NCBI GenBank assembly: GCA_002010065.2
Contig: MTMD02000004.1
Span: 1 to 14,159 of the forward strand
Direction of reading: 5' to 3'
From: Candidatus Pyrohabitans jungbluthii
GTDB lineage: Archaea; Hydrothermarchaeota; Hydrothermarchaeia; Hydrothermarchaeales; BMS3B
Length of the DNA stretch: 14,159 bases
The notes beneath the pieces are model-generated. The model did not search any database. It saw only the letters and a list, made by a program, of their open reading frames with translations, and was not told where the DNA came from. Both the position numbers and the translations under genes were made by a program. Below, one piece after another: positions 1 to 13,980 of this stretch (position 1 is its first letter; every line of letters starts with the position of its first letter).

Positions 1-86
1 ACGACAAGGAGTTCGAGCAGGCGGCGGACAAGCTTCTGGTGGTGGAGAAGAAGGCGGGTGTTTCGCGGGTGATTGAGGCTACCTAG
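1..86 (+). CDS. C-terminal end of an unidentified protein (partial)
   Basis: The third frame is open from the window edge to a TAG at 84-86 and encodes about 27 residues ending KAGVSRVIEAT. The residues are charged and helix-prone (DKEFEQAADKLLVVEKK), as expected of a real C-terminus, whereas the other two plus frames hit stops between 70 and 75. The family cannot be recognised from so little. The stop overlaps the stop of the convergent minus-strand gene within a shared CTAG at 83-86. Confidence 0.6.
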   Translation, partial: DKEFEQAADKLLVVEKKAGVSRVIEAT

Positions 87-1120
87 CGCCTGTGCAGCAC
101 CATATCCACCAGCCCGACTGCGCCGGTCATCATCACGTCTCCAGCGGGAGAAGCGAACTCCACCTTTAGCGAGGAGTTGCGAAGCATACCGCGGTTTGGG
201 CCGGTGACCATTATCCTCTTCACCCTATCTATACCAACGCCCTCGCGAATCACGCACCCATGCCCGGAGTCGTTGTATACCTCCTCGTTGGTAAGCTTAC
301 CCTCGGCGAAGCGCACTACAAGCTGCTCCAGCTTTTCCTTATTTAGCAGCGATGTGTGGTGCTCCATGAAGCCTGCGACGCGGTTATCCTCATCCACAAG
401 CGCAACGAGGGTGTGGCCGTTGCCCACATCTATGGATATTGCCGGGCGCTCCTCTATGCCATGGAGCGCGCCCACTATCGCAGCTATCTTCGAATCTGCG
501 ATGAAAGGCTTAGCCTGAGTTTCCCTCTCTATCAACCGCCTCACGGCGCACATTCGGGTATAGTACTCCGGTGGCGACTCATAACCCAAATCGAGCATGT
601 GCTTGCGTTGCTTCACAAACTCTGCAATCTTCTCAAATCGGAAAACGCGATCCGACTTACCGCGAGGCGCTCTGCCGTGGTCCTGCACGGCTACAGCGAA
701 ATAATCAAAGCTGAAGGGCTCACCCACCTGTGTAAGTATGCTCCGGAATAGCTCAAAGTCAATGTCCCCGGTCTCCAGCTTGGCGAAGCCGTTGAGCTTT
801 TCCACCTCCTCCTCTGGGATTACCTCAATCCCCATCTCCTTGACTTGCTCTAAATCGTCGCGCACACTCATCGCAGCGCGGGGTGTCATAACCACACGGT
901 AGCCCCTGCGCAGATGCTCTGCCAGAGCAAATGCGAGAGGACCACCGCCCATGGTTTCGCCGGTTAAAAGCAGGTCGCTGGCTGTGCTTGCCACCTTTGC
1001 GGCGAGTATACGCGTGGGCGAGGGAAGCACAAGCTTCGGGTTATTCTCCAGGTTGCGCGAGGAGTCGAAGACCAGCACATCCTGCGTGCCCATGCCTACA
1101 TCTATGGCAAAAATTCGCAC
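83..1120 (-). CDS. DUF1786 family actin-like (ASKHA-fold) protein
   Basis: This looks like a DUF1786 protein, an archaeal and bacterial family often labelled 'pyruvate formate-lyase activating enzyme related', a label that does not imply a radical SAM enzyme. No CX3CX2C cluster is visible. The N-terminus has a phosphate-1-like motif, AIDVGMGTQD, and a second nucleotide-binding-like strand, ISIDVGNGHTLVALV, lies about two thirds along. This spacing resembles actin/Hsp70/sugar-kinase ATPases. The frame is open back to an ATG at 1159, but the extra residues MLPSTHNTLSEPS are unlike a family N-terminus. The GTG at 1118-1120 (VRIFAIDVG) fits better and lies about 45 bases downstream of a TATA-like box at 1162-1169, whereas the 1159 ATG would be only about 6 bases from it. 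The biological role is unknown. The gene stands alone, divergent from the DUF835 gene. Confidence 0.8.
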   Translation of the reverse strand: MRIFAIDVGMGTQDVLVFDSSRNLENNPKLVLPSPTRILAAKVASTASDLLLTGETMGGGPLAFALAEHLRRGYRVVMTPRAAMSVRDDLEQVKEMGIEVIPEEEVEKLNGFAKLETGDIDFELFRSILTQVGEPFSFDYFAVAVQDHGRAPRGKSDRVFRFEKIAEFVKQRKHMLDLGYESPPEYYTRMCAVRRLIERETQAKPFIADSKIAAIVGALHGIEERPAISIDVGNGHTLVALVDEDNRVAGFMEHHTSLLNKEKLEQLVVRFAEGKLTNEEVYNDSGHGCVIREGVGIDRVKRIMVTGPNRGMLRNSSLKVEFASPAGDVMMTGAVGLVDMVLHRR

Positions 1121-1161
1121 CGAAGGCTCAGAAAGAGTATTATGTGTAGAAGGCAGCATAG

Positions 1162-1169
1162 TTTAATAT
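1162..1169. promoter_or_regulatory. Near-symmetric TATA-like element between divergent genes
   Basis: TTTAATAT(T) reads almost the same on both strands (AATATTAAA). It lies about 41 bases before the ATG at 1206 and about 45 bases before the GTG at 1120. It could therefore serve both genes with short leaders of roughly 15-19 bases. This is inferred from position and base composition only. Confidence 0.4.
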
Positions 1170-1205
1170 TGCAGATTCCCATAGTAAACATTACTGAGAT
1201 GCCAT

Positions 1206-3188
1206 ATGATAGCACGAGTGATTTTTGCTCCCATTGCAAGAGGTTTAGTGTACCTGATAGAGAAAGATAAAGAGGATAGAAGCACATATGTTCTTCTATT
1301 CTCTACAGCCACAGTGCTCTTGGCGTCTCTTTTCCTCTACCTCTCCCTCACCCAGGATCCATACTCAGCGGGGTTGAAAATTGGGCTGATCGTAACCCTG
1401 CTGCTGAGCGCACTCTCCGGAGAGGTGCTGCGCCACCTTGCCTCTGCCTCGGAAATAAAACGTGTCCTCGACGCCAGCCTCGACTTTGTGGTTTATGCCT
1501 CTGCGCTTTACTCCTTCTCCATGGCAATAAATCCGCCTCTCCTCCTGCCATGGGTGGGCCTCCGGGAGTACATGCTTCTCTTTCTCCTTCTCGTGGCAGG
1601 CGCTGTGTTACATGCAAAATACGGTGCCGAGGTAACCCGCTGGCTGAGCCTCAGAGCGGAGAGGCTCTTAATTTTCACCCTGTTTCTTATCGCGGGATTC
1701 TACTACTCAGCATTTGAGGCTAGCATGCTTCTCGGGCTTGGATTCCTTGTGGGTGTATTATACTTAAGCGTTGTTTTGAGGCAGCTCGCGAGGGTAAATG
1801 TAAGTCTCCCAAGGCTCAGGTTGAGCCCTCTGAAAGGCATGCTGAAACTTTCTCTCAAGATTTCTTTCAGGTTGCTCTCTGCCTCAGCAGGAGCCCTGCG
1901 CACGCTCTTCTATGCAATAGGTGGGATTTTTAGCAGAAAGCGAGCCCACGTGGAGCAGGAGGAGCCAGAGGAAGAGTTTGAGGAGCCGTATAGGGGGCAC
2001 AGGTTTACAGTGATGATAACCGATGAGATGGAGAATCCCATCTCTGGTGCGAGGGTGGTAATTCAGAATAAAGATACAGGACTGGAGGAGGTTCGAGTAA
2101 GCGACTCCAGTGGCAGGTGCACCTTTGAAGGGATTGCTCCGGGGCTGTATCGTATTATCATAGATGGTGAGGGAATAGCACCAGAGGAGCACGAGCGCTA
2201 CATAAGCATGGACCACGGCGAGGTTTTCGCAGTAAAATTAAAAGCCAGCGACCTGAGCGTGGTGGTTAGCCGCCGCGGACTGGGCACGCCTGTGAAAGAT
2301 GCACGAGTGGTGCTCATAAGCGATGGCTCTCGGAAGGAGGCAAGAACCAATAACCTGGGCGTAGCCTACTTCGACTCCCTCGAGGTAAAGGAGTATCTTC
2401 TGGAAGTTGAGGCCGCAGGCTATGAGAGGTACTCGAGACCTATAAGCCTCTTCGCGGAGAATGTCGTCGCTGTAGCGCTTGAACCAAAACAGGAGACAAA
2501 GGCGGAGGTGCCTCAGAAAGAAGCTGAGGCAGAATCACAAGCAGAAGAGGTGGAAGCTGAACCAGAGGCTAAGCCCAAGAGGACTAAGCCTCCTGCCGAA
2601 AAGAAGGCTCCCAAGGAAGAGGAGCCTGCCGCTGAAGAGATCGAGATAACCCCCGAGGAAGAGGAGGTTATTTTTGGCGAGTCTGCGCTAATTGAGTACA
2701 CCTCTGACGCCAGGCTGAGCGAGGTGGTGGCGAGCATAGTGAGGGAGCATATTGCAAATGAGCGCGATGTGTTTCTTGTGAGCATGCAGCCCCGCACTGA
2801 GGCGTATCGCCGGGAGTTTGCCAAGCTGATAGGCGAGGGCAGGGTGAGAGTGATAAACCTGGCTACTAAGGGCTCGCCACCAAAGAGCGACTCGGGGATA
2901 GAGGAGGTGCCAATCTCTAACCTTGAGTACTTCAATGCCGTGTTTGAGGAGATGCCCGCAGGTGCGCTTTTCATCTTTGAGCCTCTGTCAAGTGTGGTTC
3001 TCACCCTTGGTGCAGAGCATGCGTACCGCTTTATCTCTCGTACCGCCGAGCACCTGAGCAACGAGGGGCTCTTCTTCATCTGCTTTATCAATAAGGAGAT
3101 GCACAGCGCTAAGGAGATCTCAAGCTTCAGAGAGCTTTTCATGAATGTTGCGGAGATAAAGGATGGAAGGATAAGAAGGGTTAGGTGA
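1206..3188 (+). CDS. Membrane protein with two beta-sandwich repeats and a C-terminal DUF835 domain
   Basis: This 660-residue protein has four visible parts. Residues 1-195 hold about six hydrophobic helices (roughly 28-48, 56-75, 92-108, 120-137, 153-169, 173-191). After a basic amphipathic stretch and an acidic patch (QEEPEEEFEEP) come two related predicted beta-sandwich units, about 266-346 and 349-427. Each shows a carboxypeptidase-regulatory/PEGA-like pattern: '(N/T)PxxxARVVxxxxD', then a turn such as SSGRCTFEGI or NNLGVAYFDSL, then 'YxxxxxxxGY/EG'. Residues 428-487 are a Glu/Ala/Lys/Pro linker. The end (about 488-655, GESALIEYTS to ELFMNVAEIKDG) matches DUF835, a RecA/KaiC-like archaeal domain often found in sensory proteins. 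With an even number of helices both ends would be cytoplasmic. A signalling or scaffold role is a guess. The ATG at 1206 fits the preceding TATA box. Confidence 0.8.
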   Translation: MIARVIFAPIARGLVYLIEKDKEDRSTYVLLFSTATVLLASLFLYLSLTQDPYSAGLKIGLIVTLLLSALSGEVLRHLASASEIKRVLDASLDFVVYASALYSFSMAINPPLLLPWVGLREYMLLFLLLVAGAVLHAKYGAEVTRWLSLRAERLLIFTLFLIAGFYYSAFEASMLLGLGFLVGVLYLSVVLRQLARVNVSLPRLRLSPLKGMLKLSLKISFRLLSASAGALRTLFYAIGGIFSRKRAHVEQEEPEEEFEEPYRGHRFTVMITDEMENPISGARVVIQNKDTGLEEVRVSDSSGRCTFEGIAPGLYRIIIDGEGIAPEEHERYISMDHGEVFAVKLKASDLSVVVSRRGLGTPVKDARVVLISDGSRKEARTNNLGVAYFDSLEVKEYLLEVEAAGYERYSRPISLFAENVVAVALEPKQETKAEVPQKEAEAESQAEEVEAEPEAKPKRTKPPAEKKAPKEEEPAAEEIEITPEEEEVIFGESALIEYTSDARLSEVVASIVREHIANERDVFLVSMQPRTEAYRREFAKLIGEGRVRVINLATKGSPPKSDSGIEEVPISNLEYFNAVFEEMPAGALFIFEPLSSVVLTLGAEHAYRFISRTAEHLSNEGLFFICFINKEMHSAKEISSFRELFMNVAEIKDGRIRRVR

Positions 3189-3200
3189 GGTTCTATAAGA

Positions 3201-3869
3201 CTAATACCCCTCGTATAGGCGCTGTGCAAGAATCGCAGGCAAACCCGCGCGTAGTATGTCCTTTGCCACCCTCGAAATGTCGTACTTCACCCTGACTATC
3301 TCCACCTCCAGCGTTGCGAGGTCTATACATGCGAAGCTCGCCCTCGGATCGCCATCACGAGGTTGCCCCACACTGCCAGGGTTAACAATAAGCGTGCCTC
3401 CAAGCTTTCGTGAGAAGGGTATGTGCGTGTGCCCCATCGCTAATACAGCGCGAGAAGCAAGCTTCAGGAATGCGCTGAGCACTTCCTCCGGGTAATCTGG
3501 GTAAACATACTCCTCCAGCTTGCGGCGCGGGCTGCCGTGCACTGCGTAAACTTCATTTTTAATCTCCAGCGGCAGCGATGCAAGGTATGCAAGCTCCTCT
3601 CTGCGAAGCTGTTCGCGGGTCCACTCTATAGCTCTTGCAGCCACCGGGTTGAACCAGGCTGTATCTCCTGTTACCACAGCATGGTCGTGATTTCCCAGCA
3701 CTGAGGCGATGCGCTTCTCTCTCAAAAGCTCAATCACTTCCCTGGGGTAAGGGTTGTAGCCTACCACATCGCCAAGGTGAATGGTCTTTGCCCTGGGAAG
3801 CTCATCTAGCACTGCCTCTAACGCGGGGAGATTCGCATGTATGTCCGCGATCAAATTCAGCTTTGCCAC
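3201..3869 (-). CDS. Metallophosphoesterase, YfcE/MJ0936 family
   Basis: This is a calcineurin-like dinuclear-metal phosphodiesterase. All family motifs are in order, numbered from the proposed start: DIHAN (Asp9, His11), GDVVGYNP (Asp34), GNHDH (Asn60, His61), VHGSP (His111), GHTHIPF (His147, His149), then NPGSVGQPRDGDPRASF. About 222 residues is usual for small archaeal members, which cleave model phosphodiesters in vitro; the natural substrate is unknown. The frame extends to an ATG at 3896, but the GTG at 3867-3869 gives VAKLNLIADIHAN, the normal family N-terminus. That GTG lies about 27 bases downstream of a TATA-like TTTATG which contains the 3896 ATG, so a leaderless message from the GTG is likelier. 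It converges with the DUF835 gene (12-base gap) and is divergent from the glycosyltransferase gene. Confidence 0.92.
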   Translation of the reverse strand: MAKLNLIADIHANLPALEAVLDELPRAKTIHLGDVVGYNPYPREVIELLREKRIASVLGNHDHAVVTGDTAWFNPVAARAIEWTREQLRREELAYLASLPLEIKNEVYAVHGSPRRKLEEYVYPDYPEEVLSAFLKLASRAVLAMGHTHIPFSRKLGGTLIVNPGSVGQPRDGDPRASFACIDLATLEVEIVRVKYDISRVAKDILRAGLPAILAQRLYEGY

Positions 3870-3893
3870 GGTTATGCTTTTAACCCTTGAGAG

Positions 3894-3899
3894 CATAAA
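3894..3899 (-). promoter_or_regulatory. TATA-like box of the metallophosphoesterase gene
   Basis: On the minus strand the sequence reads GGTTTATGC. Its centre is about 27 bases before the GTG at 3869, the normal archaeal distance from TATA box to transcription start. This predicts a leaderless transcript and excludes the upstream ATG, which falls inside the box. Confidence 0.4.
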
Positions 3900-3946
3900 C
3901 CTTTTTGGCTGGTTACCCGTCTCGCGTAGCGATAGGGGGACGAAGG

Positions 3947-5635
3947 ATGCTCGTTAAAAGCTTCAGAGCACTGCTGTACCTCGAAAGGAGAGAAGCAACT
4001 TTTCTCTTCGTCGTGTATCTTCTTGGTCTTGGGCTGAGGCTTATCCCAAGGCTGAGCGTGGATCCGCATCTGCTCACCTTTCAGGGTGACATTTGGTACC
4101 GCCTAGCTATGGCGCAGTACATTTTAGATTATCATGCCCTGCCTGAGCCAGACCTCAGGTATCGGACCTATGGCTATGTTCCCATGTGGTATCCTCCGCT
4201 CGCGCCAGTGCTTTTTGCGCTGGGAAACTTGGCTTTTGGAGTTGACCTGCCTACGCTGTGCTCCCGGGTGCTCCCCTTTCTGGAAGCTGCCACCCCCCTT
4301 TCTATCTACTTCCTTGCTAGGCACCTCGCCGGAAGGTTCGCCGCAGCAGTCGCAACCATCACCCTCGCTTTAACCCCAAGCTTTGTGTTCTGGAGTGGCA
4401 TCGCCGACCCCCAGAGCTTCACCCTCTTCGCCATACCCCTCTACATCCTCTACTGGATGTGGTATGCCAACACGAGGGAGATTCTGGGCAGCAGGAAAGC
4501 GATCTATCTCGTTATACTAGGCGTAGCTCTTGGTATAAACTTCCTGCTCCACCTCTCCTACTTCCTGGTTCTCCTCTCTCTGCTGATGGTGAGCATTGGG
4601 CTCATTATCAAAAAAGAGGCAAAAGCTAGCCTGCTCCTAGACCTCATAGCTGTTATCGCCATCTCGCAGGCATTCGCTGCCCCGTGGTGGCTTCCGCGCA
4701 ATCTGTACTGGTGGTGGATTAATGCGCTCGTTACAAGCAGCGGGATGTACCCTGTGGAACGCCAGCTGGAAGAGTACGGCATAATCGCCGCTTTGCTAGG
4801 CTTCGCTGGTATGCTCTACCTGCTCCTCCGCTCCCCACGCAAGCACGCGCCCCTGCTCCTCTGGGCGCTGCCGATTTTTCTTGAAACCCAGAACGAGGTT
4901 ATTCTGAATGCGCTGGGAAGGGTGGACCTTACCTGGCATACTCTGGCGAAGCCCCTTGAAGGCTTCCGCTTTTACCCCTTCCTCGCTCAGCCCGTTGCGA
5001 TTGCTGTGGGAATTTTAGCAAGCGATGCGATGAGGTGGGTTACCCTGAGCCGCGCACAGGGTGACAGAGCGAAACACTGGAGAGGCGCCCGCAACTTTGT
5101 ACTCCTAGCTTTAGCAGGGCTACTTCTTGCAGGTTGCTACGAGTATGGCTTGGACTCCCGCTTCCTCGCCTCAGGGCTTGTGCCGGAGGAGTACCAGGCA
5201 GCGCTCTGGTTCAGAGATAACACAGGCGAAGAGGCGAAGATAATTGCCGACTACTACCGCGCTCAGATGTTCGCAGGTGTAACCGCAGGCAGGGCTTTGC
5301 TTGGAGGAATGTTCCCACTGCGGAATGTAGACTATCCCTACATAAAAGCCCCGGGGCAGGTGCAGAACGATCTCTACATACTCTACAACACCTCTTCATC
5401 GAGAGAAGCCTGGGAAATTGCAAAGCGCTACAACGCTACGCACATCTTCTACTCCAGAAACATGGAAAAGTACGGCAATCTGTTGAGCTACTTCAAGCCT
5501 GCCACAGAGTATGGCGTTGAGGTAGACTTAGAGAAATTCGAGGATGTGAGTTACTTCATAAAGGTGTACGACAGCAATAAAAGCGGTCTGGGCGAGGTTA
5601 GGATATACAAGGTCAGAGTTTATGTTGAGCCTTGA
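3947..5635 (+). CDS. GT-C-fold multi-pass membrane glycosyltransferase (STT3/PMT-like)
   Basis: This is a 562-residue membrane protein with about ten or more hydrophobic helices and a soluble C-terminal third. After the first helix (about 18-32) comes an outside loop with FQGDIWYRLAMA and then HALPEPDLRYR and WYPPLAP. A conserved acid in this first loop (here Asp48) is the hallmark of GT-C glycosyltransferases, which use lipid-linked sugars. The C-terminal region (AALWFRDNTGEEAKI, then AGRALLGG) resembles the outer domain of archaeal STT3-like proteins. The WWDYG motif of true AglB oligosaccharyltransferases is not present, so donor and acceptor are unknown. An upstream TTG (3905) extends the frame, but the ATG at 3947 follows a purine-rich AGGGGGA about seven bases away and begins just before the first helix. 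No other glycosylation gene is adjacent. Confidence 0.75.
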   Translation: MLVKSFRALLYLERREATFLFVVYLLGLGLRLIPRLSVDPHLLTFQGDIWYRLAMAQYILDYHALPEPDLRYRTYGYVPMWYPPLAPVLFALGNLAFGVDLPTLCSRVLPFLEAATPLSIYFLARHLAGRFAAAVATITLALTPSFVFWSGIADPQSFTLFAIPLYILYWMWYANTREILGSRKAIYLVILGVALGINFLLHLSYFLVLLSLLMVSIGLIIKKEAKASLLLDLIAVIAISQAFAAPWWLPRNLYWWWINALVTSSGMYPVERQLEEYGIIAALLGFAGMLYLLLRSPRKHAPLLLWALPIFLETQNEVILNALGRVDLTWHTLAKPLEGFRFYPFLAQPVAIAVGILASDAMRWVTLSRAQGDRAKHWRGARNFVLLALAGLLLAGCYEYGLDSRFLASGLVPEEYQAALWFRDNTGEEAKIIADYYRAQMFAGVTAGRALLGGMFPLRNVDYPYIKAPGQVQNDLYILYNTSSSREAWEIAKRYNATHIFYSRNMEKYGNLLSYFKPATEYGVEVDLEKFEDVSYFIKVYDSNKSGLGEVRIYKVRVYVEP

Positions 5636-5672
5636 GTGCATTGTATGTTGCAGCTTACCAAAATTGCCATAA

Positions 5673-5883
5673 TTACTGCTTTAGTCTCTCTACAACCTTT
5701 GTGATAACTTCCTCGGTTTTCTCTGATTTAAAATGTCCCACTTGGTAAAGGATAATTTACGATCGGTGGTGATTCGTAATTTGACAGAGAATTAAGTCAT
5801 CACATTCCAATACAGCTAAAACAAGGGCAGGACGCCTTTTCCTCTGTGTAAGGTCTGAGAAAGGAAAGCCTGCCAAGCTTCAT
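5673..5883 (-). pseudogene. Decayed MazF/PemK-type toxin remnant
   Basis: Reading the minus strand from 5870 gives GFPFSDLTQRKRRPALVL followed by DDLILCQITNHHRS. This is the core of the MazF/PemK endoribonuclease family (PFPFTDLSxxKxRPALVLS ... DxILCQIT). An in-frame TAA stands at 5757-5759. The same frame then continues with IILYQVGHFKSEKTEEVITK and ends at TAA 5673-5675, which resembles the family C-terminus (SLIxYKVGKL..EK..EVI..). The residues normally between these two blocks are missing, so an internal deletion plus a stop has removed the middle. The N-terminal M-x-x-G-D-I-V-L block before PFPF is also lost; an ATG at 5881-5883 (MKLG) is in another frame. The gene cannot make a working toxin. 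The decayed antitoxin lies just upstream. Confidence 0.82.
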
Positions 5884-6034
5884 CCTCCTCTGGTCAAAGC
5901 CAGTCTTTTAAGAGATGATTCACTGGTAATGGCGATTTCAAATCTAAATCTCAAATCTAATGAAGTCTATCATCTCCTCCAGAAGTGCATCTGACACATG
6001 TCAATTTTCCGGTAAGATACCAGAGCTTCAACAT
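5870..6034 (-). pseudogene. Decayed antitoxin remnant paired with the MazF-like toxin
   Basis: Three minus-strand pieces in successive frames rebuild a small antitoxin of the kind encoded just before MazF/PemK toxins: (LPEN)-SDALLEEMIDFIRFEI, then EIAITSESSL, then KDWL-stop-PEEDEAWQ. The last block matches the common C-terminal signature 'SExxLAKDWLRPEEDEAW'. The stop in it (TGA at 5894-5896) is one C-to-T change from CGA (Arg), the expected residue. The first frameshift is explained by a 13-base tandem duplication at 5938-5960; removing one copy restores DFIRFEIAITSES. A second frameshift lies near 5906-5910, and a further stop separates LPEN from HVSD. PEEDEAWQ then runs directly into the toxin's GFPFSDL region, so the antitoxin end and toxin start were probably deleted together. 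The N-terminus before LPEN is not recognisable. Confidence 0.75.
5938..5960. repeat. 13-base tandem duplication inside the antitoxin pseudogene
   Basis: The 13-base unit TCAAATCTAAATC (5938-5950) is followed directly by TCAAATCTAA (5951-5960), a ten-base second copy. Because 13 is not a multiple of three, it shifts the frame of the antitoxin remnant, and the residues FEI are readable in both frames on either side. Confidence 0.75.
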
Positions 6035-6041
6035 TCCAAAC

Positions 6042-6488
6042 TCACAACGCCTTAATCACGTCCCCCCGCGTTATTATGCCCATCAGCTTCTCACCCCTGA
6101 CTACAGGCAGGCGGTTTATGTTGTGCTTTGCCATTAATCGCGCCGCCTCCTCAACGCTTGCCTCCTCATCTATGGTTATCACCTTGCGGGTCATAACGTC
6201 TTTCACCTTAGAGGCAGCAAGCTTTTTTACCGTCTCCTCCAGCTTCCGGTGCATCTTTATCGGCAGCTCTATCAGGTCGAAGGGGCTGGGAAGTATAAGG
6301 TTGAGGCTCATATCGTCCTGAAAGAGCCTCATCAGGTCAGCCTCGCTGAGTATCCCTACTATTCTCTCTCCCTCAACCACAGGAGCACCGCTGATTTTGT
6401 TCTCTCTCAGTAGCTTCGCAGCCTCTCCTATGCTCGACTCGGGGGTAAGGGTTATAACCTCACGTGTCATCACATCCTTAACCTTCAA
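6042..6488 (-). CDS. Twin CBS-domain protein
   Basis: This 148-residue protein consists of two CBS motifs and little else. CBS1 covers about residues 1-60 (VKDVMTREVITLTPESS ... GAPVVEGERIVGILSEADL) and CBS2 about 93-148 (VKDVMTRKVITIDEEAS ... RLPVVRGEKLMGIITRGDV). They are joined by about 30 residues with a predicted helix (MHRKLEETVKKLA). CBS pairs form Bateman modules that bind adenosine nucleotides or S-adenosylmethionine; the ligand cannot be read from the sequence. The start is a TTG at 6486-6488, supported by GGAGGG seven bases upstream and by the usual VKDVMT beginning. The gene lies 12 bases downstream of argC on the same strand and is probably cotranscribed, but a role in arginine synthesis is not implied by that alone. 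Confidence 0.92.
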   Translation of the reverse strand: MKVKDVMTREVITLTPESSIGEAAKLLRENKISGAPVVEGERIVGILSEADLMRLFQDDMSLNLILPSPFDLIELPIKMHRKLEETVKKLAASKVKDVMTRKVITIDEEASVEEAARLMAKHNINRLPVVRGEKLMGIITRGDVIKAL

Positions 6489-6500
6489 AATTCTGCCCTC

Positions 6501-7535
6501 CTATGGGTGGATCCCCACGCTTCTCAATCCCTCCTCCTCGCGGAAGCCCAGCATTATGTTCATGTTCTGCACCGCCTGCCCTGAAGCGCCTTTTACCAGA
6601 TTGTCTATCGCTGAGACGACTATAACCCTTTCACGCTCCCCGTCAATGGCGAAGCCGCCTATGTCGGTGAAGTTTGAGCCTCGCACAGCGCTCAAGCGGG
6701 GTACCTCACCTACGTCGAGCACGCGCACAAAGGGTTCATTCATGTAGTACTCCTCGTAGAGCTTCCTAACCTCTTCAGGGCTGAGCTCTTGGGTGAGGAA
6801 GCAGTGCAGTGTGCTCGTAAGTCCACGAATGACTGGTACAATGTGTGGGACGAAGGACACTCTCACCTCACTGGAGAAGCGGCGAAGCTCCTGCTCTATC
6901 TCAGGCAGGTGCTGATGCGCCGTCATTTTATAGGCGAGCACGCTCTCAGCGGCGTTTGGAAAATGAGTGGTCTCTCTGGGTTTGTTTCCTGCGCCAGAGA
7001 TTCCGCTCTTGGCATCGGCAACTATATGGGGGGCATCTATAACCCCTGCCTTAAGCAGCGGCACAAGTCCAAGGATAATGCTCGTTGGGTAGCAGCCAGG
7101 GTTTGCCACCAGCTCAGCGCGCCTTATCTCTTTCCTGTGAAGCTCAGGTAAACCATAGGCTGCCCTAATATCAGGAGCGACATGCTTCTTTCCATAGTAC
7201 CTCTCGTACACCGCAACGTCCTCGAAACGAAAGTCACCGCTCAGGTCTACAACGCGCACGCCATGCTCCAGAAGGGTGGGCACTATCTCCATGCTCGCTC
7301 CGTGAGGTGTGGCGCAGAAGACGAGGTCGCAGCGCTCAGCAACGCGCTCGTAGGGGATATCCTCAAAGCTCAGGTTGAGCACGCGGCGCAAGTTGGGGTG
7401 CACCTTGTAAGCAGGCTTGCCAGCATGCATGCGAGAGGTAATACAGGCTATCTCTACCTCGCTGTGCTGCGCCAGGATGCGGAGAAGCTCACCGCCAGTG
7501 TAGCCAGAGGCGCCGACTATGCCAACCTTTACCAT
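6501..7535 (-). CDS. argC: N-acetyl-gamma-glutamyl-phosphate reductase
   Basis: ArgC makes N-acetylglutamate semialdehyde from N-acetyl-gamma-glutamyl phosphate with NADPH, the third step of arginine synthesis, in the cytoplasm. The 344-residue protein has the nucleotide-binding start VGIVGASGYTGGELLR, the central DLVFCATPHGAS and VVDLSGDFR blocks, the catalytic cysteine in VANPGCYPTS (Cys148), and the GISGAGNKP and THFPNAAES segments. Some archaeal homologues (LysY) act on LysW-carried substrates for lysine, and without LysW nearby the specificity is not settled here. The frame extends to a GTG at 7556, but the ATG at 7535 gives the standard MVKVGIVGASG beginning and lies about 25 bases from a TATA box that the longer ORF would nearly overlap. 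No other arginine gene is adjacent; a CBS protein follows in the same transcript. Confidence 0.95.
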   Translation of the reverse strand: MVKVGIVGASGYTGGELLRILAQHSEVEIACITSRMHAGKPAYKVHPNLRRVLNLSFEDIPYERVAERCDLVFCATPHGASMEIVPTLLEHGVRVVDLSGDFRFEDVAVYERYYGKKHVAPDIRAAYGLPELHRKEIRRAELVANPGCYPTSIILGLVPLLKAGVIDAPHIVADAKSGISGAGNKPRETTHFPNAAESVLAYKMTAHQHLPEIEQELRRFSSEVRVSFVPHIVPVIRGLTSTLHCFLTQELSPEEVRKLYEEYYMNEPFVRVLDVGEVPRLSAVRGSNFTDIGGFAIDGERERVIVVSAIDNLVKGASGQAVQNMNIMLGFREEEGLRSVGIHP

Positions 7536-7556
7536 GGTGAGAAATAAGCATGCCAC

Positions 7557-7563
7557 AATATAA
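7557..7563 (-). promoter_or_regulatory. TATA-like box of argC
   Basis: The minus strand reads GGTTATATTGTGG. The TTATATT core is centred about 25 bases before the argC ATG at 7535, which suggests a leaderless argC message. A purine-rich AGGAGGG further upstream (about 7569-7575) is then not a ribosome site for this gene. Confidence 0.45.
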
Positions 7564-7626
7564 CCTTTACCCTCCTGTGGGAAGAGAGACTAACATCTCC
7601 AACTTGCAGATTTTAAGGCACGAGTA

Positions 7627-8544
7627 TCAGCGGAACGCATCCTTCCCGTGCTTCTTCATCCTCTCAACAATCTCCCTGAACAACTCCCTGTAGTTATCCT
7701 CCGTAACCTCCTTCTCGATCTTTGCACCTGCGGCTACCTCTCTTCCCCCACCGCCGAAGAGCTGGGCAAGCTTGCGCAGGTTTACTTTGGGGTTGTTCCT
7801 GCGGAAGCTCAGCTTGCCGTCTGGGTAGACTACGACCACGAAATCTGTGCCCTTCTCCTGAAGGTAGAGCGACGCAAGGGTTGAGCTCAGGTACTTTTTA
7901 GACAGCGCCATGGCGCAAGTGTAGCCGTAAATATTAAACACCTCTAGGTGCTCATCAAGGTATGCGTAGCCCTTCTCCTTTGCTCGCTGGTATCGCTGAT
8001 AGGCTTCCTCAAACTCCTCATTCCAGAACTCACCCCGTGAGAGGGCTTCAACAAATCTCAGCTTATCGTAACCAGAGGAGATGACATCGTAGAGCTTCCA
8101 TGCAAGCTCGCTTTCCTCGCGAAAGTCGTGGGCATGGGCGAGGCGTGCGATCTCCTTTGAAACTTCGTCGCTGGGCATGAACTCCTGCTGCACAAGCTCA
8201 GCGGCGCATAGCTTGGAGCTGTGGATGAATCGAAGTTTTAGCTTCAGAATCTCCTCGCCCCCCTGCCAGTCGTGATGGTCTATCCAGATTACCTCGTTTG
8301 CTTCACAGAGCTTTGCCAGTGCGTCCTTGGCAGAGAGCACCCTTGAGTTGTACCCCAGGTCTGCGATTATTACCTTTTCGCCTTCAGTCTCTTCACTAAG
8401 CTTCACAATTATCTCAGTGAGGTCGTCGTAGTCAGCAAAGTAATGGGTTACCTCCTCACCTATTTCACGCGCAAACCTGCGCATTATCGCATGGCTTCCA
8501 AGACCATCGAGGTCCTTCTTGTGGGCTATGCATATGCAACCCAT
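7627..8544 (-). CDS. DHH/DHHA1 family phosphoesterase
   Basis: This 305-residue protein has the DHH metal-binding motifs: CIAHKKDLDG at residues 5-14 (His8, Asp11, Asp13), IADLGYN (Asp62), and the name-giving IDHHDW (Asp89-His90-His91). The C-terminal DHHA1 substrate domain ends in FGGGGREVAAGAKI, where the more common form is GGGGHxxAAG, so Arg replaces the usual His. DHH proteins of this size include nano-RNases, cyclic dinucleotide or pAp phosphatases and RecJ-like nucleases, and the sequence does not decide among them. The frame continues upstream to 8610, but that start lies beyond the TATA box. The ATG at 8544 (MGCICIAHKKD) is about 27 bases from the box centre and gives the usual short lead into motif I. 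The gene is divergent from the YedE-type transporter genes. Confidence 0.88.
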   Translation of the reverse strand: MGCICIAHKKDLDGLGSHAIMRRFAREIGEEVTHYFADYDDLTEIIVKLSEETEGEKVIIADLGYNSRVLSAKDALAKLCEANEVIWIDHHDWQGGEEILKLKLRFIHSSKLCAAELVQQEFMPSDEVSKEIARLAHAHDFREESELAWKLYDVISSGYDKLRFVEALSRGEFWNEEFEEAYQRYQRAKEKGYAYLDEHLEVFNIYGYTCAMALSKKYLSSTLASLYLQEKGTDFVVVVYPDGKLSFRRNNPKVNLRKLAQLFGGGGREVAAGAKIEKEVTEDNYRELFREIVERMKKHGKDAFR

Positions 8545-8567
8545 GGGCTGGTTATAGGAAAACGCGA

Positions 8568-8574
8568 TAATAAA
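8568..8574 (-). promoter_or_regulatory. TATA-like box of the DHH phosphoesterase gene
   Basis: The minus strand reads AATATTTATTATCGC. The TTTATTA core is centred about 27 bases before the ATG at 8544, implying transcription starts at or next to the start codon. Confidence 0.45.
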
Positions 8575-8623
8575 TATTCGGGTGTGCATGAGATTTCCAA
8601 ACCCATGCATAATTTAGAAAAAC

Positions 8624-8630
8624 TTAAATA
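8624..8630 (+). promoter_or_regulatory. TATA-like box of the YedE-type transporter operon
   Basis: TTAAATA in the context AACTTAAATAGCG lies about 51 bases before the ATG at 8678. Transcription should begin near 8653, giving a leader of about 25 bases that carries the strong ribosome site GGAGGT at 8665-8670. Confidence 0.45.
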
Positions 8631-8633
8631 GCG

Positions 8634-8653
8634 CCGGTTTGAGTTTAAACCGG
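8634..8653. promoter_or_regulatory. Perfect inverted repeat between TATA box and ribosome site (candidate operator)
   Basis: CCGGTTT (8634-8640) and AAACCGG (8647-8653) are perfect 7-base inverted repeats with a 6-base spacer. They lie directly after the TATA box and reach the predicted transcription start. A DNA-binding dimer here would block initiation. Because most of it lies before the expected start, an operator is likelier than an RNA hairpin. The binding protein is unknown. Confidence 0.4.
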
Positions 8654-8677
8654 GTCAAGCCGAAGGAGGTCCAGAAG

Positions 8678-9169
8678 ATGGGAGTGAAGGAGCTTATTCA
8701 TGAGCCATTGGATGAAAAGAAGGGTGGTATCGCCCTGGGCATTATACTGGTACTTTTGGTAATCCCCGCTCTTGGTTATGGAAGAGCATGGGCGTTCGCT
8801 GGTGGCCTGCGTTGGATGGACTACAAGATACTCGAGGCAGCCGGCGCGTATTCGCTGCTCAGCAACAGCTTCTGGTCGCTTATAAAAGCGCCGATGCTGG
8901 TTTTCATATTCCTCGTTGCCTTCGTGGTGGGCAGCTTTATAGCAGCGAAGATAAACGGTGAGTTCGTAAACACCTGGGACAAGTCCACCATACACTACCA
9001 GATAATCGGTGGCTTCCTCATGGGCGTCGGCATAGTGCTCATAACCACCTGCAACATAGGCATCTTCCTAAACTCAATGCCCCAGCTCAGCATTGGCGGC
9101 TACATAGCTGCAGTGGGACTAGTGATAGGCACCTACATAGGGGCAAAGATATACGAGCGCACAATGTGA
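8678..9169 (+). CDS. YeeE/YedE (TsuA) family transporter, N-terminal-half subunit
   Basis: This 163-residue membrane protein has about four hydrophobic stretches (roughly 18-35, 70-90, 108-130, 138-157). The signature GGFLMGVGIVLITTCNIGIF (Cys125) matches the GCN-containing repeat in the first half of full-length YedE. The family imports sulfur or selenium compounds; the structurally studied TsuA carries thiosulfate using conserved cysteines. Full-length YedE has both halves in one chain of roughly 350-400 residues, whereas here the halves are two genes in the same order. A TTG at 8639 extends the frame, but it lies inside the inverted repeat. The ATG at 8678 follows GGAGGT by seven bases and is preferred. 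The partner gene starts 10 bases after this stop. Confidence 0.88.
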   Translation: MGVKELIHEPLDEKKGGIALGIILVLLVIPALGYGRAWAFAGGLRWMDYKILEAAGAYSLLSNSFWSLIKAPMLVFIFLVAFVVGSFIAAKINGEFVNTWDKSTIHYQIIGGFLMGVGIVLITTCNIGIFLNSMPQLSIGGYIAAVGLVIGTYIGAKIYERTM

Positions 9170-9179
9170 GGTGAGGTAA

Positions 9180-9740
9180 ATGACCGACTATACGCTTGCA
9201 AATTACGCTGGTGCAATAGTTTTTGGTCTGCTTCTTGGCTTTGTGGTGCAGCGCTCCCGCTACTGCATGACAGGCGCAATACGCGATTACTTCCTATTCG
9301 GGATAACCCGCAACCTGCAGATGACCTTCATAGTGCTTGCGATAATAAGTTTCTTCTACACGCTGTTCCTCACCTATGGGGTATTTAGACCCACGATGGT
9401 ACCCGCTGGTTGGTTCACCCTTGTTGGCGGGATAATCTTTGGAATAGGCATGGCCATTGGCGGAGGCTGCGTGACGTCGACGTTCTACAGGATAGGCGAG
9501 GGACAGTGGAACTACGTCGCAAGCGTAATCTTCATGCTCGTGGGAATAATCGCTGGCTCCTGGCTCTTCAATGTTGCGCCCTACGCCTTCTTCTATGAGG
9601 GTTACACCTTCTTGGGCTACGACTACGGTCTCGTTTGGCTCAATGACCTTCTGGGTGACCTCCCGCCTGTGGCGGTTGGCGTGGTGCAGGCAGCGATATT
9701 CGCTATCGCTTACTACAAGCTCTCAAAAAGCGAGGCGTAG
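9180..9740 (+). CDS. YeeE/YedE (TsuA) family transporter, C-terminal-half subunit
   Basis: This 186-residue membrane protein carries the two motifs found in the second half of full-length YedE: GFVVQRSRYCMTGAIRDYFLFG (Cys29; positions about 20-41) and GGIIFGIGMAIGGGCVTSTFYR (Cys97; about 83-104), followed by GEGQW. Together with the upstream subunit's Cys125 the pair has three motif cysteines, consistent with the cysteine-relay idea for thiosulfate passage in TsuA. The gene follows its partner by 10 bases with its own ribosome site GGTGAGG, so the two are probably made together and assemble as a heteromer. No TusA/YedF-type sulfur carrier is next to them, so the substrate (thiosulfate, another sulfur species or selenium) is inferred from the family only. 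Confidence 0.9.
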   Translation: MTDYTLANYAGAIVFGLLLGFVVQRSRYCMTGAIRDYFLFGITRNLQMTFIVLAIISFFYTLFLTYGVFRPTMVPAGWFTLVGGIIFGIGMAIGGGCVTSTFYRIGEGQWNYVASVIFMLVGIIAGSWLFNVAPYAFFYEGYTFLGYDYGLVWLNDLLGDLPPVAVGVVQAAIFAIAYYKLSKSEA

Positions 9741-9753
9741 CCCCCTTCTCTCC

Positions 9754-9759
9754 TTTTTT
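9754..9759 (+). terminator. Oligo-T terminator after the transporter operon
   Basis: A run of six T residues (CTCCTTTTTTCCGG) starts 14 bases after the transporter stop. Archaeal RNA polymerase terminates at such T tracts without needing a hairpin, and the next gene has its own AT-rich promoter. Confidence 0.4.
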
Positions 9760-9802
9760 CCGGATATAACAGCAAAGTTTGCAGTGGTTATACATTAAGC
9801 AA

Positions 9803-9818
9803 TATTATAAAAATATTT
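9803..9818 (+). promoter_or_regulatory. AT-rich promoter region of the 48-residue ORF
   Basis: The stretch TATTATAAAAATATTT contains TATA-box matches about 20-30 bases before the ATG at 9833. A second TATA-like site, TTATACAT near 9788-9795, would give a short leader that includes AAAGGAGAG. Both are only sequence-level candidates. Confidence 0.4.
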
Positions 9819-9832
9819 TAAAGGAGAGAAGG

Positions 9833-9979
9833 ATGAAACTGAGACTGCGTGTGGACGAGTTGATTAGCATACTTGTGAAGTCGGAAGAGTCGCTGCTCAA
9901 GAAGTACGACCTGGATGCGGCCAAACTTAAGAAGCTCCAGAAGTCACTTCAGGAGGGGAACTGGAGACTTATTCCCTGA
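9833..9979 (+). CDS. Small charged protein of unknown function (48 residues)
   Basis: I do not recognise this protein. It is 48 residues long, rich in Lys, Leu and Glu, with no cysteine and no membrane helix. Residues 6-40 (RVDELISILVKSEESLLKK, then DLDAAKLKKLQKSLQEG) should form two short helices. The frame is open further upstream to 9779, but the ATG at 9833 follows AAGGAGAGAAGG and an AT-rich promoter, whereas upstream codons fall in promoter-like sequence. It lies between the YedE-type operon (same strand, separated by a T-rich terminator and its own promoter) and tatC. Its last 11 bases overlap the 3' end of tatC on the opposite strand. A real small gene is likely because of the start signals and amino-acid make-up. 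Confidence 0.6.
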   Translation: MKLRLRVDELISILVKSEESLLKKYDLDAAKLKKLQKSLQEGNWRLIP

Positions 9980-10661
9980 TTTTTAATAGAAAGCTTGCTA
10001 CTAAAATACTCATTTCGTAGAGTATTATCAGGGGGAAGGAGAGGAGAAGCTGGCTCATTGGCGTAGGGTCAGCAGTTATAATTGCGGCTAGGGTTACTAT
10101 ACCCACATAGACAAACTTCCGCTTTTGTTTTAGAGACTCAACGCTCACGAAGCCGTGAAGCGCCAGCCAGGTTACCGCGAGGGGCAGCTCAAAGAGCAAG
10201 CTGAATATGACGGTAGTGAGGAATGCGAAGAAGATAAACTGGTTAATGCTGTAGTACGCAAGCACTCCTGCCTCGGTGGTAAGCGTCGTTAGCACTTTCA
10301 CAGCAGTGGGCAAAAGCAGAAAGTAAGTGAAGCCAAAGCCAAGGAAGAGGAGGGCAAGGGCTGCGATAAGCCACAGCAGTGTGCTTGCCTTAAACCTGAA
10401 ATGCAGGGTTCGCAGGATGATGAAGAGGGTGAGGGGGATAATCGCTATGCCCGTGAGCACAAGCGCTATCTGTAGCTTCACCATCACCGTCTCCAGCATC
10501 CCCGTGGCAATCAGTCTTGCGCTCTCGGGCAGGAGATCCTGCTTCATTCTGTGTATAATGAAGCCTGAGAGGTAGAAGAAGAGGGTGAAGAAGGCAAGGC
10601 CTGTGCCTAAGAGGAACCATGCATGCCTGCGCAGCAGGAGGAGGTATCTAAACAAAGCCAT
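9969..10661 (-). CDS. tatC: TatC-like twin-arginine translocase subunit, divergent
   Basis: TatC is the membrane receptor of the Tat pathway, which exports folded proteins with twin-arginine signals. This 230-residue protein has about six helices and aligns through the family: LPESARLIATGMLE, then FGFTYFLLLP, then FELPLAVTWLALHGFVSVESLKQKRKFVYV, then ITADPTPMSQLLLSFPLIILYE. The membrane-buried glutamate of the FEVP motif is kept (Glu158). However, the N-terminal HLxELRxR motif reads YLLLLRRH, so the signal-binding glutamate (E. coli Glu15) is Leu. The first cytoplasmic loop reads RTLHFRFKAS, with no equivalent of E. coli Glu103. Both residues are central to twin-arginine recognition in bacteria. 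No TatA is adjacent. The gene starts 10 bases after purP and is the last of a four-gene minus-strand operon. Confidence 0.85.
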   Translation of the reverse strand: MALFRYLLLLRRHAWFLLGTGLAFFTLFFYLSGFIIHRMKQDLLPESARLIATGMLETVMVKLQIALVLTGIAIIPLTLFIILRTLHFRFKASTLLWLIAALALLFLGFGFTYFLLLPTAVKVLTTLTTEAGVLAYYSINQFIFFAFLTTVIFSLLFELPLAVTWLALHGFVSVESLKQKRKFVYVGIVTLAAIITADPTPMSQLLLSFPLIILYEMSILVASFLLKIRE

Positions 10662-10671
10662 ACCCTAAGCC

Positions 10672-11757
10672 TCATGTTATGAGAAGCTCCTCCTTCTCCT
10701 GCTCTAAAGCGAGGCGTAGCTCTCGCGCTATCCTGCGACCCATGCTCATGTTGTCACCGTACAGCAGATAGCTGTAGGGCGAGCCCGAGATGAAGGGGTT
10801 GGTGCCGGCTACGATTCGCGCTGAAATCTCGAAGGCTATGAATTCGAGGTCATGCGTAACCATGGTCTCCAAGCAAAAGGGACCAAGCATTCCCGGCGGG
10901 GCGATCTCCTTCGAGACTTCCACCAGGCGGTCGCCCATCTCAAGCACTCGAGGCAAGAGTGACTCCCTCGCAACGAGGGGTGCATTACCAACGACGACGT
11001 AGCTTGGCTCAATGTAGGTCTCTGTCTGGTCAATCGCGGGTATTCGCGTGAGCCCGTCGATGTTTGCCTCGTACCTGCGGTCTATGCCAAAGAGTTCCAC
11101 CTCGTTGGTTAGGGGGGAGTAAAAGTAGGAGAGGTACATATTTACCCCTGGTATGTACTCCTGAATCGTCGCCTTCTCCAGGTCTTCGCGGGTAATACTT
11201 CCGCGGCGTATCAGTCGCTCAGCTTTCCTCTTGAAGTCTTTGTAGCTTGCTACGATGAAGTAGCCTCTTCCGCCGCGAGCACCTGGAAACTTGACCAGGC
11301 TTAACCTGTCTATATCTCTGGGGTCCTTTGTCTCTTTGGGCATCTTTATTCCCGCTTTGGTAAGCCACTGCCTCTCAAGGTTGCGATCCGCCTCCCAGCG
11401 CAGTATGTGGCGGTTGCCAAGGAGAGGGACGCGAAGCTTTTCCTCTATGTTCCTCACGCCAACATATGCGATTAGCGAACCATGAGGAACAAGAAGGGCG
11501 TTGAGCTTTCTAAGCTTCTCCAGCGTCTTCTCTGAGATAGTCTCCGAGTAGCTATCCAGAGTTATTATCTCGTCAGCTACGCGAAAGCGGCGATAAAGAT
11601 CCGCGCGGTCTCGTTTGCAGACTACGACCGTTCTGAAGCCTTCCTCCTTCGCTCCTTTCAGAATCTGGAGCGCTGAGTGGCTACCCAGCGTAGCTATGGC
11701 GAGATCGCTCCTGTCATAGCCTCTGTAGATTTCCAGAATATCCTCTCTTTCAAACAT
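10672..11757 (-). CDS. purP: Formate-dependent FAICAR synthetase (PurP)
   Basis: PurP is an ATP-grasp ligase that uses formate and ATP to turn AICAR into FAICAR, the ninth step of archaeal IMP synthesis, replacing the folate-dependent PurH transformylase. The 361-residue length is the same as I recall for the Methanocaldococcus jannaschii enzyme. Diagnostic blocks are all present: LGSHSALQILKGAK (His27), VPHGSLIAYVG, VPLLGNRHILRWEADR, the ATP-binding VKFPGARGGRGYF (155-167), QEYIPG, GIDRRYE (224-230), PSYVVVGN, and the C-terminal GPFCLE and FEISARI segments that supply metal and nucleotide ligands. It starts 8 bases after its paralogue, with GGTGAGG as ribosome site, and precedes tatC by 10 bases. 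Function is assigned with high confidence from motif conservation. Confidence 0.95.
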   Translation of the reverse strand: MFEREDILEIYRGYDRSDLAIATLGSHSALQILKGAKEEGFRTVVVCKRDRADLYRRFRVADEIITLDSYSETISEKTLEKLRKLNALLVPHGSLIAYVGVRNIEEKLRVPLLGNRHILRWEADRNLERQWLTKAGIKMPKETKDPRDIDRLSLVKFPGARGGRGYFIVASYKDFKRKAERLIRRGSITREDLEKATIQEYIPGVNMYLSYFYSPLTNEVELFGIDRRYEANIDGLTRIPAIDQTETYIEPSYVVVGNAPLVARESLLPRVLEMGDRLVEVSKEIAPPGMLGPFCLETMVTHDLEFIAFEISARIVAGTNPFISGSPYSYLLYGDNMSMGRRIARELRLALEQEKEELLIT

Positions 11758-11765
11758 GCCCTCAC

Positions 11766-12902
11766 CTACGTCACAATCTCTTCCAGCCTGCCGAGCCTCA
11801 CCGCTTCGGCGATCTCCATCATGGCCAGGTCAAGCGGGTCTTCTATTCGTCTGCCGTACTTTATGCTGAGGTTGCGCATCTCAGGCGAGGTAGGTCCCAT
11901 TGCAGGATCGCCAGGAACGCGGGGCGAAACATCGAAGACCACAAACTCCAGCGTTTTGTTGTCTTCAGGCGAATACGCTATTGCACCCTGGAGGGAGAAG
12001 GGACCTATCATCTTTGGTGGGTACTCCTTCTCGACCACCCTGCGGAAGCGGTAGGCGGCATCGTAAACGAGGTGCTGCTTGCTCTCCCGCATGGTTACAC
12101 CGTAATGCCCTATCTCCTCGTTGGTCACGGGTACGCGAATCTTCAGCTGGTCCTTCGCGGGTAGATTGAGGAAACCCTGCAGATTTACCTGCCTCCTGTC
12201 TGAAAAGCCCACCAGATCAAAATCGCCAAAGATATCCTCTAACGCATAGCCATGGAAGTTGGCATTGAAGCGAGCACCCAGCACGTACTCCTCTATCCTC
12301 GCCTTGCTCAGCGTCTCCTCACTTATTATACCCTGTTTCAGAAGCTCCTCAGCCTGGCGATAGTAATCTTCTGGCGAGTCAACGTAGAAGAACGCCCTCT
12401 CCAGAGGGTTTGCGGCCTGCTGCACCTTGACTATGCACAGCCTGTCTATATCCTCCGGCTTTTCAAAGTGCTTCGGCGTTCTTATGCCCGCCTTTTTAAG
12501 AAGATAGTACTGCCCGCGCTCATCTTCGCGATCTTCTGCGCGCAGGATAAAGCGGTTGCCATACAGGGGCACGCGAAACTCGTTCTCAATCCCATCATAG
12601 CCCACATAAACGGCGAAGGAGCGGTTGGGAATAAAGATGGTGTTCAGCTCGCGAAGGCGCTCCTGCACCTCTTCATTGAGCATGTCCTTGAAGCGTTCTA
12701 CGGTTATTATCTCGTCATAGAGATGGCGGTTGTAAGTGGTATAGAGCTTCTCCCTGCCCTTCTGCACCACTATAGCAGTGCGGAAGCCAGCCACCTTTGC
12801 AGCGGCGCCTATCTCCTTGGCAGAGTGCGAGCCAAAAATGCCTATGGTTATATCCTTGCCATAGCCTGCGGCGATTTTCTGAATCTCCTCTCGCTTAAGC
12901 AT
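11766..12902 (-). CDS. Divergent PurP paralogue (ATP-grasp ligase-like, PurP2)
   Basis: This 378-residue protein is clearly homologous to the neighbouring PurP along its whole length: FGSHSAKEIGAAAK (His26), FIPNRSFAVYVG, VPLYGNRFILRAEDR, EEYVLGA, DQLKIRVP, MIGPFSLQ, VVFDVSPRV. The defining ATP-grasp glycine-rich stretch is gone, however. Where PurP has VKFPGARGGRGYF, this protein has VKVQQAANPLERAFF (158-172). GIDRRYE becomes GFSDRRQVN, and ISARIVAGTNPF becomes VSPRVPGDPAMG. Paralogues of PurP are known in many archaea without an established reaction. It may use another substrate, or act as a non-catalytic or regulatory partner of the PurP next door; the sequence alone does not decide. It starts 5 bases after the aMBF1 stop, with GGGGTAGG as ribosome site. 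Confidence 0.85.
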   Translation of the reverse strand: MLKREEIQKIAAGYGKDITIGIFGSHSAKEIGAAAKVAGFRTAIVVQKGREKLYTTYNRHLYDEIITVERFKDMLNEEVQERLRELNTIFIPNRSFAVYVGYDGIENEFRVPLYGNRFILRAEDREDERGQYYLLKKAGIRTPKHFEKPEDIDRLCIVKVQQAANPLERAFFYVDSPEDYYRQAEELLKQGIISEETLSKARIEEYVLGARFNANFHGYALEDIFGDFDLVGFSDRRQVNLQGFLNLPAKDQLKIRVPVTNEEIGHYGVTMRESKQHLVYDAAYRFRRVVEKEYPPKMIGPFSLQGAIAYSPEDNKTLEFVVFDVSPRVPGDPAMGPTSPEMRNLSIKYGRRIEDPLDLAMMEIAEAVRLGRLEEIVT

Positions 12903-12907
12903 ATTTC

Positions 12908-13396
12908 CTACCCCTTTTTCTTTATCTTGATAATATCGCCAATTGTTAGCTCCCCTGAGGCTTTGCCTGAAGCGGAGTACTCCTCCTCTTCGGCAATCTC
13001 CTCGAGGATTTTAATGTCCAGCGCCCTCTCAAGCTTCTTTGCGATTTCCACGCTGGGCTTCATTTTACCTGCCTCAAGGCGCGCTATAACGGAGACCTTT
13101 TCATTTATCTTCCTGCCCAGCTCCTCCTGGGTGAGCTTTCTTGCCTCTCTCGCGCGGCGTATTATGTTGCTATAGTCCTCTACGACCTCCACGATGGGTT
13201 CGCGCTTACCCCCGTAGGGATACCTCTTCTTCGTTACGGTAACCGCCTTCCCGGGCTCCCGTCTGGGCAGGCGTGACCAGGTCTTCGCCTCCCTGCCGAA
13301 GCGCGCACATTGTTTACAGGTTTTCATCTCCGTGCCTTCAATTACCACCGAAACAGGCTTTCCCCAAATCTTGCGCCCGCACACTTCACACTCCAT
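12908..13396 (-). CDS. mbf1: aMBF1, archaeal multiprotein bridging factor 1 homologue
   Basis: This 162-residue protein has an N-terminal zinc ribbon, CEVC (Cys3, Cys6) and CKQC (Cys27, Cys30), then a basic linker (about 45-66) and a Cro/C1-type helix-turn-helix. The latter covers about residues 76-130: IIRRAREARKLTQEELGRKI, SVIARLEAGKMKPS, AKKLERALDIKI. The tail is lysine-rich (IIKIKKKG). This order is that of archaeal aMBF1 (TIGR00270-type). Eukaryotic MBF1 bridges activators and TBP; the archaeal protein has been linked to ribosomes, and its exact role is not settled. It heads a four-gene operon with PurP2, PurP and TatC and is divergent from endA across 79 bases. AT-rich boxes at about 13411-13419 and 13426-13433 are its candidate promoter. 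Confidence 0.93.
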   Translation of the reverse strand: MECEVCGRKIWGKPVSVVIEGTEMKTCKQCARFGREAKTWSRLPRREPGKAVTVTKKRYPYGGKREPIVEVVEDYSNIIRRAREARKLTQEELGRKINEKVSVIARLEAGKMKPSVEIAKKLERALDIKILEEIAEEEEYSASGKASGELTIGDIIKIKKKG

Positions 13397-13443
13397 AACC
13401 AGAGCCTTCCTTAAAAATTGATGGGTTAATTATCTGTGGAGTA

Positions 13444-13453
13444 TTTTTAAATA
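13444..13453 (+). promoter_or_regulatory. TATA-like box of endA
   Basis: TTTTTAAATA is centred about 27 bases before the ATG at 13476, and no ribosome site precedes the ATG (the sequence there is GAGAATATCTCAGT). This predicts a leaderless endA message. Confidence 0.5.
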
Positions 13454-13475
13454 TTTTCCTCGAGAATATCTCAGT

Positions 13476-13973
13476 ATGAAAGGCTACCTTGTAGAAAAGT
13501 ATGTGATTCTCACCGACCAAAAGGCGATTTCCCAGCTTGTGCAGAAGGGCTATGGGAAGAAGAGGGAGGGCAAACTCTACCTCTCACTGGTTGAGGCGCT
13601 GTACCTTGTGGAGAAGGGCAAACTTGAGGTGTTTAGCGGAGAGCGCTCTTTAAGTCATGAGGAGCTTCTGGCTACGCCTGAGGAGGAGCTTCTGGTCAGG
13701 TATACGGTTTACCGCGACTTACGCGAGCGTGGCTATGTTGTGAAAACTGGCTTCAAATTTGGCTCGCATTTCCGCGTTTATGAGCGGGGAACTTACCCCA
13801 AGGAGCACTCCCGCTATCTGGTGCATGCGGTGCGCGAGGATAGCGCGATAAGCTTCACAGAACTCGCTCGCGCAGTGCGCTTAGCACATGGCGTGAGGAA
13901 AAAGATGCTCTTCGCTGTGGTGGATGAAGAGGGCGATGTTACATACTATGCCGTGGAGAGAATGACGCCTTGA
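13476..13973 (+). CDS. endA: tRNA-splicing endonuclease (homotetrameric type)
   Basis: EndA cuts introns out of pre-tRNA and pre-rRNA at bulge-helix-bulge structures, leaving 2',3'-cyclic phosphate ends. The 165-residue, single-repeat length fits the homotetrameric archaeal class (as in Methanocaldococcus jannaschii) rather than the double-length or heteromeric classes. The catalytic triad is visible: Tyr102 in FRVYERG, His111 in HSRYLVHAV, and Lys142 in VRKKMLFAVVD. The N-terminal domain (1-75) includes the typical LYLSLVEALYLVEKGKLEV segment, and the stretch FTELARAVRLAHGVRKK is strongly conserved. It has a TATA box at leaderless distance and converges with the acyltransferase gene (7-base gap). 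The four-subunit class predicts that target introns have standard bulge-helix-bulge motifs. Confidence 0.97.
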   Translation: MKGYLVEKYVILTDQKAISQLVQKGYGKKREGKLYLSLVEALYLVEKGKLEVFSGERSLSHEELLATPEEELLVRYTVYRDLRERGYVVKTGFKFGSHFRVYERGTYPKEHSRYLVHAVREDSAISFTELARAVRLAHGVRKKMLFAVVDEEGDVTYYAVERMTP

Positions 13974-13980
13974 GTTCCAT

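Follow-up and report, generated by a model that had tools for sequence, protein, structure and literature searches.

The window analysed here is a stretch of 14,159 nucleotides of DNA from Candidatus Pyrohabitans jungbluthii, a hydrothermal-sediment archaeon of the Ca. Hydrothermarchaeota, and it makes up one whole contig (C4) of a 1.99 Mb genome (G000) in 15 contigs, with ends that have exactly 55 bases in common with contigs C11 and C6. Its gap of interest lies between two convergent genes: a plus-strand membrane-protein gene (3905-5635), STT3-like by eye and placed from the open reading frame list and the sister locus L023, and a minus-strand gene for a CBS-domain protein (6042-6488; Pfam PF00571). 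The membrane-protein gene has no Pfam match, and its last codons differ from those in the sister genome. About 34 bases near its annotated start (3912-3945) recur at several places in G000 and in the sister genome G001, and are perhaps a repeated upstream element or the mark of a misjudged start codon. In the gap, on the minus strand, we find an antitoxin pseudogene (5870-5982, corresponding to profile columns 19-62 of 64 and reading LEEMIDFIRF ... EIAITSESSL KDWL*PEEDEAWQ), and downstream of it a MazF/PemK-type toxin pseudogene (5676-5867, columns 14-110 of 110, with about 33 internal columns missing). An initial annotation, made from the letters alone, had proposed a fossil MazEF-like toxin-antitoxin module at this position, and the peptide pieces that it quoted are all present on the minus strand of 5636-6041.

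General family libraries had little to say about the gap. The read-through pieces gave a single Pfam match, a weak one below the cut-off to PemK_toxin (PF02452, E 0.086), with no Pfam match for the antitoxin remnant by itself, and nothing relevant was found in NCBIfam, where a match to an acyl carrier protein (E 0.023) was judged to be due to chance. Since these searches gave only one weak match, the verdict rested on two profiles built from relatives, 14 open toxins and 15 open antitoxins. In frameshift-tolerant profile alignments, the minus strand scored 137 half-bits for the antitoxin (5982-5870) and 235 half-bits for the toxin (5867-5676), compared with 39.9 and 44.5 half-bits for the best of 300 dinucleotide shuffles, and with 23.3 (antitoxin) and 31.1 (toxin) half-bits for the plus strand of the gap. 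The antitoxin precedes the toxin, as in the relatives, and the KDWL.PEEDEAW C-terminal motif stands directly upstream of the toxin in the relatives' overlapping frame relation. Similarity to both partners was thus found, so that the outcome named by the initial annotation as its refutation did not arise, and homology of the gap to both profiles can be taken as conclusive at the level of sequence. The toxin profile found no match among solved structures at E 0.001. The toxin remnant follows the PF02452 profile, its RPA and QIT segments included, and belongs to that family as a pseudogene; it is no working gene with a frame open over the whole fold, since it lacks about 10 and about 33 codons and carries a frameshift and a TAA. 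We consider it very probable that the gap holds the non-functional remnant of a type II module in which a DUF2281-type antitoxin gene overlapped a downstream gene for a MazF/PemK-type mRNA interferase.

A scan of bacterial and archaeal genomes, with the window toxin start joined to the toxin of a genus mate (G004) as the query, yielded 26 related loci, with identities to the query of 62-84% in most cases. About 15 relatives, from both archaea and bacteria, have both genes open, with gene order and overlap as in the window. Their antitoxin has about 64 residues and ends in KDWL.PEEDEAW.DL; its final codons extend about 13 bases into the toxin gene, whose product has about 110 residues. The relatives' toxins match PF02452 above the cut-off, which together with the profile scores bears out the proposal of a decayed module with a MazF/PemK-type toxin. 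The antitoxins belong elsewhere. DUF2281 (PF10047) is matched above the cut-off by the G004 antitoxin and by two of four others, the remaining two falling just below, and no AbrB/MazE family is among the Pfam matches of the antitoxin relatives. Because none of these matches MazE, the term "MazEF-like" fits the toxin only. Judging from these families, the toxin is a putative mRNA-cleaving enzyme and the antitoxin its putative inhibitor, and the intact module would encode an endoribonuclease together with a small protein that restrains it.

In the literature, DUF2281 proteins figure as antitoxins to PIN/VapC toxins, with one pair tested in E. coli (PMC12654330), and a DUF2281 antitoxin with a PIN/VapC toxin also appears in a listing (PMC4963859). 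The MazF branch to which the window module belongs pairs with a DUF2281-type antitoxin, in contrast to the pairings in these two papers, the ones found to name DUF2281 as an antitoxin (PMC4963859, PMC12654330). Within the genus, full-length DUF2281 antitoxins stand beside PIN-like toxin genes at three other loci (L083, L084 and L085, in G001, G003 and G004), and the PIN gene of L085 appears truncated. At L119 (G015:C65), an antitoxin of the DUF2281-MazF family is followed a little downstream by a PIN-like frame, with no MazF toxin, a possible case of partner exchange.

Both genes of the window module are damaged in several ways. A 13-base tandem direct repeat in the antitoxin remnant (5935-5960), found by repeat search and alignment, consists of copies at 5935-5947 and 5948-5960 with 12/13 bases identical, and coincides with a loss of about seven codons. 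The proposed second frameshift is also present, at about 5909 (5907-5909 in the alignment), on the KK of the KKDWL motif. An in-frame TGA then interrupts the C-terminal motif at a position that codes for Arg or Lys in relatives, and the suggested derivation from CGA is plausible. The first antitoxin codons, 1 to about 18 (5983 to about 6030), cannot be made out with confidence. What had been described as a deletion fusing the antitoxin end to the toxin start is partly the native overlap, although about 10 toxin codons have been lost in frame directly behind the start (LAGF-PFSDL, vs. LAGF-VKGDVVVVPF-PFSDL in L048). The alignment also shows the proposed internal toxin deletion, of about 33 codons, but the TAA assigned to it (5759-5757) arises from a separate frameshift at about 5758, near the edge of that deletion, so the two count as two lesions.

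It might be supposed that the lesions are sequencing or assembly errors in a module that is intact in the cell, as this is a draft genome of 15 contigs, probably metagenome-assembled, and the single-base indels in several relatives could be errors. Base-call errors do not typically remove about 10, 33 and 7 codons or produce a 13-base repeat, however, and the neighbouring genes are open. In addition, the exact 55-base sharing at the contig ends resembles short-read graph assembly, for which indel errors would be rare. We therefore regard errors as an extremely improbable source of the damage.

The surviving stretches are 87% (toxin segment 1), 52%, 70% and 75% identical to the family consensus, and the corresponding leave-one-out means for intact members are 88%, 65%, 77% and 83%, with all of the window stretches within the intact range. 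As the remnant is about as conserved as its living relatives, the word "fossil" overstates its age; the module died recently, and mostly by way of insertions and deletions. The alignment shows that both genes were disrupted by deletions, the tandem duplication, frameshifts and one nonsense change. We found no difference in relative substitution level from which the lesions might be ordered, both genes being about equally fresh, and because both carry similar damage the order of events is not readable at the window locus.

The longest open toxin stretch (5757-5876, minus strand) runs from a TTG start through 39 codons to the TAA, and its portion at 5769-5876 matches the relatives' toxin, with the conserved KRRPALVL and QIT segments retained. 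The survival of this frame, and the position of the remnant between two convergent gene ends, might suggest a new role as a short peptide, a transcript end or a small RNA. The frame lacks most of the fold, though, with neither the N-terminal strand nor any of the C-terminal half; the window has no Rfam family or tRNA match, the gap has no inverted repeat, and the junction is absent from relatives. We think such a role very improbable, and the remnant, lying between convergent genes at a gene-order junction, most likely does nothing.

Compared with G001, the window divides into three mosaic blocks, which lie there on three contigs: 1-5613 (95% identity), 6044-7573 (80%) and 7658-13991 (93%). 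Similarity to G001 stops at 5613 and restarts, on another contig, at 6044 (6042 in the case of G004, again on another contig), and neither of these gene-order breakpoints, 5613 and about 6042, is common to the sister genomes. The segment between them (5614-6041) was delimited by blastn to sister loci and a genus-wide DNA search, in which the junction holding the remnant was found in no relative. In both G001 and G004, the homologue of the membrane-protein gene is followed by a PAP2-family gene and an aminotransferase-like gene, while the CBS gene is followed by two genes, one uncharacterised and one leuD-like (names assigned by eye); G000 retains these old neighbours of both flanking genes elsewhere, on contigs C8 and C13. 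It is thus the segment between two breakpoints that the remnant fills. The argC-CBS block (6044-7573), at 80% identity to G001, stands out from its flanking blocks (93-95%) and from the old CBS neighbours (93%), and may stem from a replacement by DNA of a more distant relative.

The module could instead have died elsewhere and come in already broken, as part of the rearrangement by which the flanking blocks were joined. The remnant takes up precisely the stretch from one breakpoint to the other, beside a block much more diverged than the other two, as one would expect in such a case. No donor locus bearing these lesions turned up, however, and the gaps next to the relocated former neighbours, on C8 and C13, have nothing convincing in common with the remnant. 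On balance we consider arrival in a broken state rather unlikely. Nor does recent carriage by a mobile element find support, as there were no relatives among phage records, one among viral contigs (49% identity) and nine distant ones on plasmids. G000 has no match to PF02452 or PF10047 at E 0.001, and so no related module that could cross-react with the remnant or be a target for cross-protection.

The genus search did identify a close copy of the module (DDLILCQIT ... IILYRVGHLKPEKI) in G004, Ca. Hydrothermarchaeota S141_67_esom, on contig C48 (WANW01000048.1; L010/L055). It is of the same family, from the same genus, and its toxin too is broken near the start, the N-terminal part being absent; it lies at another locus, however, has other lesions, and, unlike the window, has an open antitoxin frame.

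The initial annotation had also suggested that the toxin decayed first, and while this is not something that the window can tell us, the family can be surveyed for it. A broken toxin beside an open antitoxin was found at nine loci (L050, L051, L055, L061, L062, L064, L066, L094 and L120), and breakage of the antitoxin only at none. Besides the window, two loci have both genes broken (L060 and L063), and about fifteen have both open, with the antitoxin of L053 cut by a contig edge. If lesions fall by gene length, with toxin-only to antitoxin-only breakage expected at 63:37, 9:0 has P 0.016; removal of single-base indels, possibly draft-genome errors, leaves 6:0 with P 0.064. The count omits the orphan-looking antitoxins L119 and L121, which have no alignable toxin remnant, as well as the distant L065 and also L067, where 16 residues of toxin remain and there is no antitoxin. 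Nearly all of the surveyed loci were found via the toxin, which should favour detection of antitoxin-only breakage rather than hide it. At L120 (G318), in a genome that is a single contig, the antitoxin is open and the toxin has lost about seven codons and its frame. The survey suggests that toxin-first decay is a tendency of the family, although the statistic is small and weakens from P 0.016 to P 0.064 without the single-base indels.

In the light of this pattern, the likeliest route for the window module is that the toxin was disabled first and the antitoxin thereby became dispensable. We also put forward, tentatively and with some doubt, that decay in this family is directed: the toxin would be repeatedly disabled, often by deletions just behind the antitoxin stop codon that spare the antitoxin, and the open antitoxins might for a while guard against related modules, until they too are lost, as in the window. 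The deletions that we have in mind are those of L055 (the G004 copy), L064 and L066, which start just behind the antitoxin stop codon, and the 10-codon loss in the window. Taken by itself, the window module is an ordinary pseudogene of a known kind, and the family-wide pattern is modestly interesting. The module is an end-stage example in a family whose copies, from living through half-dead to dead, can be compared side by side, which opens to a test by counting the long-assumed rule that the toxin must be the first to go.

The nearest known counterparts are the DUF2281-MazF/PemK modules of the Methanosarcinales, ANME-1, Nitrospirae, Omnitrophota and others (L042-L059), which share gene order, overlap and protein sequence with the window, but in which most frames are open, whereas both are broken here. 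Canonical MazEF has its toxin family, PF02452, in common with the window module, but an AbrB-type MazE antitoxin in place of the DUF2281-like antitoxin with its C-terminal KDWL.PEEDEAW motif. As for the manner of decay, chromosomal modules with many defective toxin genes are known from ccdO157 of E. coli (Mine et al. 2009, by way of PMC2654758, PMC7167474 and PMC7280312) and from xre-res of Pseudomonas (PMC7280312, PMC7167474, PMC2654758). Like the window module, ccdO157 sits in the chromosome and has been lost through deletion and nonsense changes, its toxin gene often defective; its toxin family is unrelated to that of the window module, and its many strains permit a step-by-step comparison.
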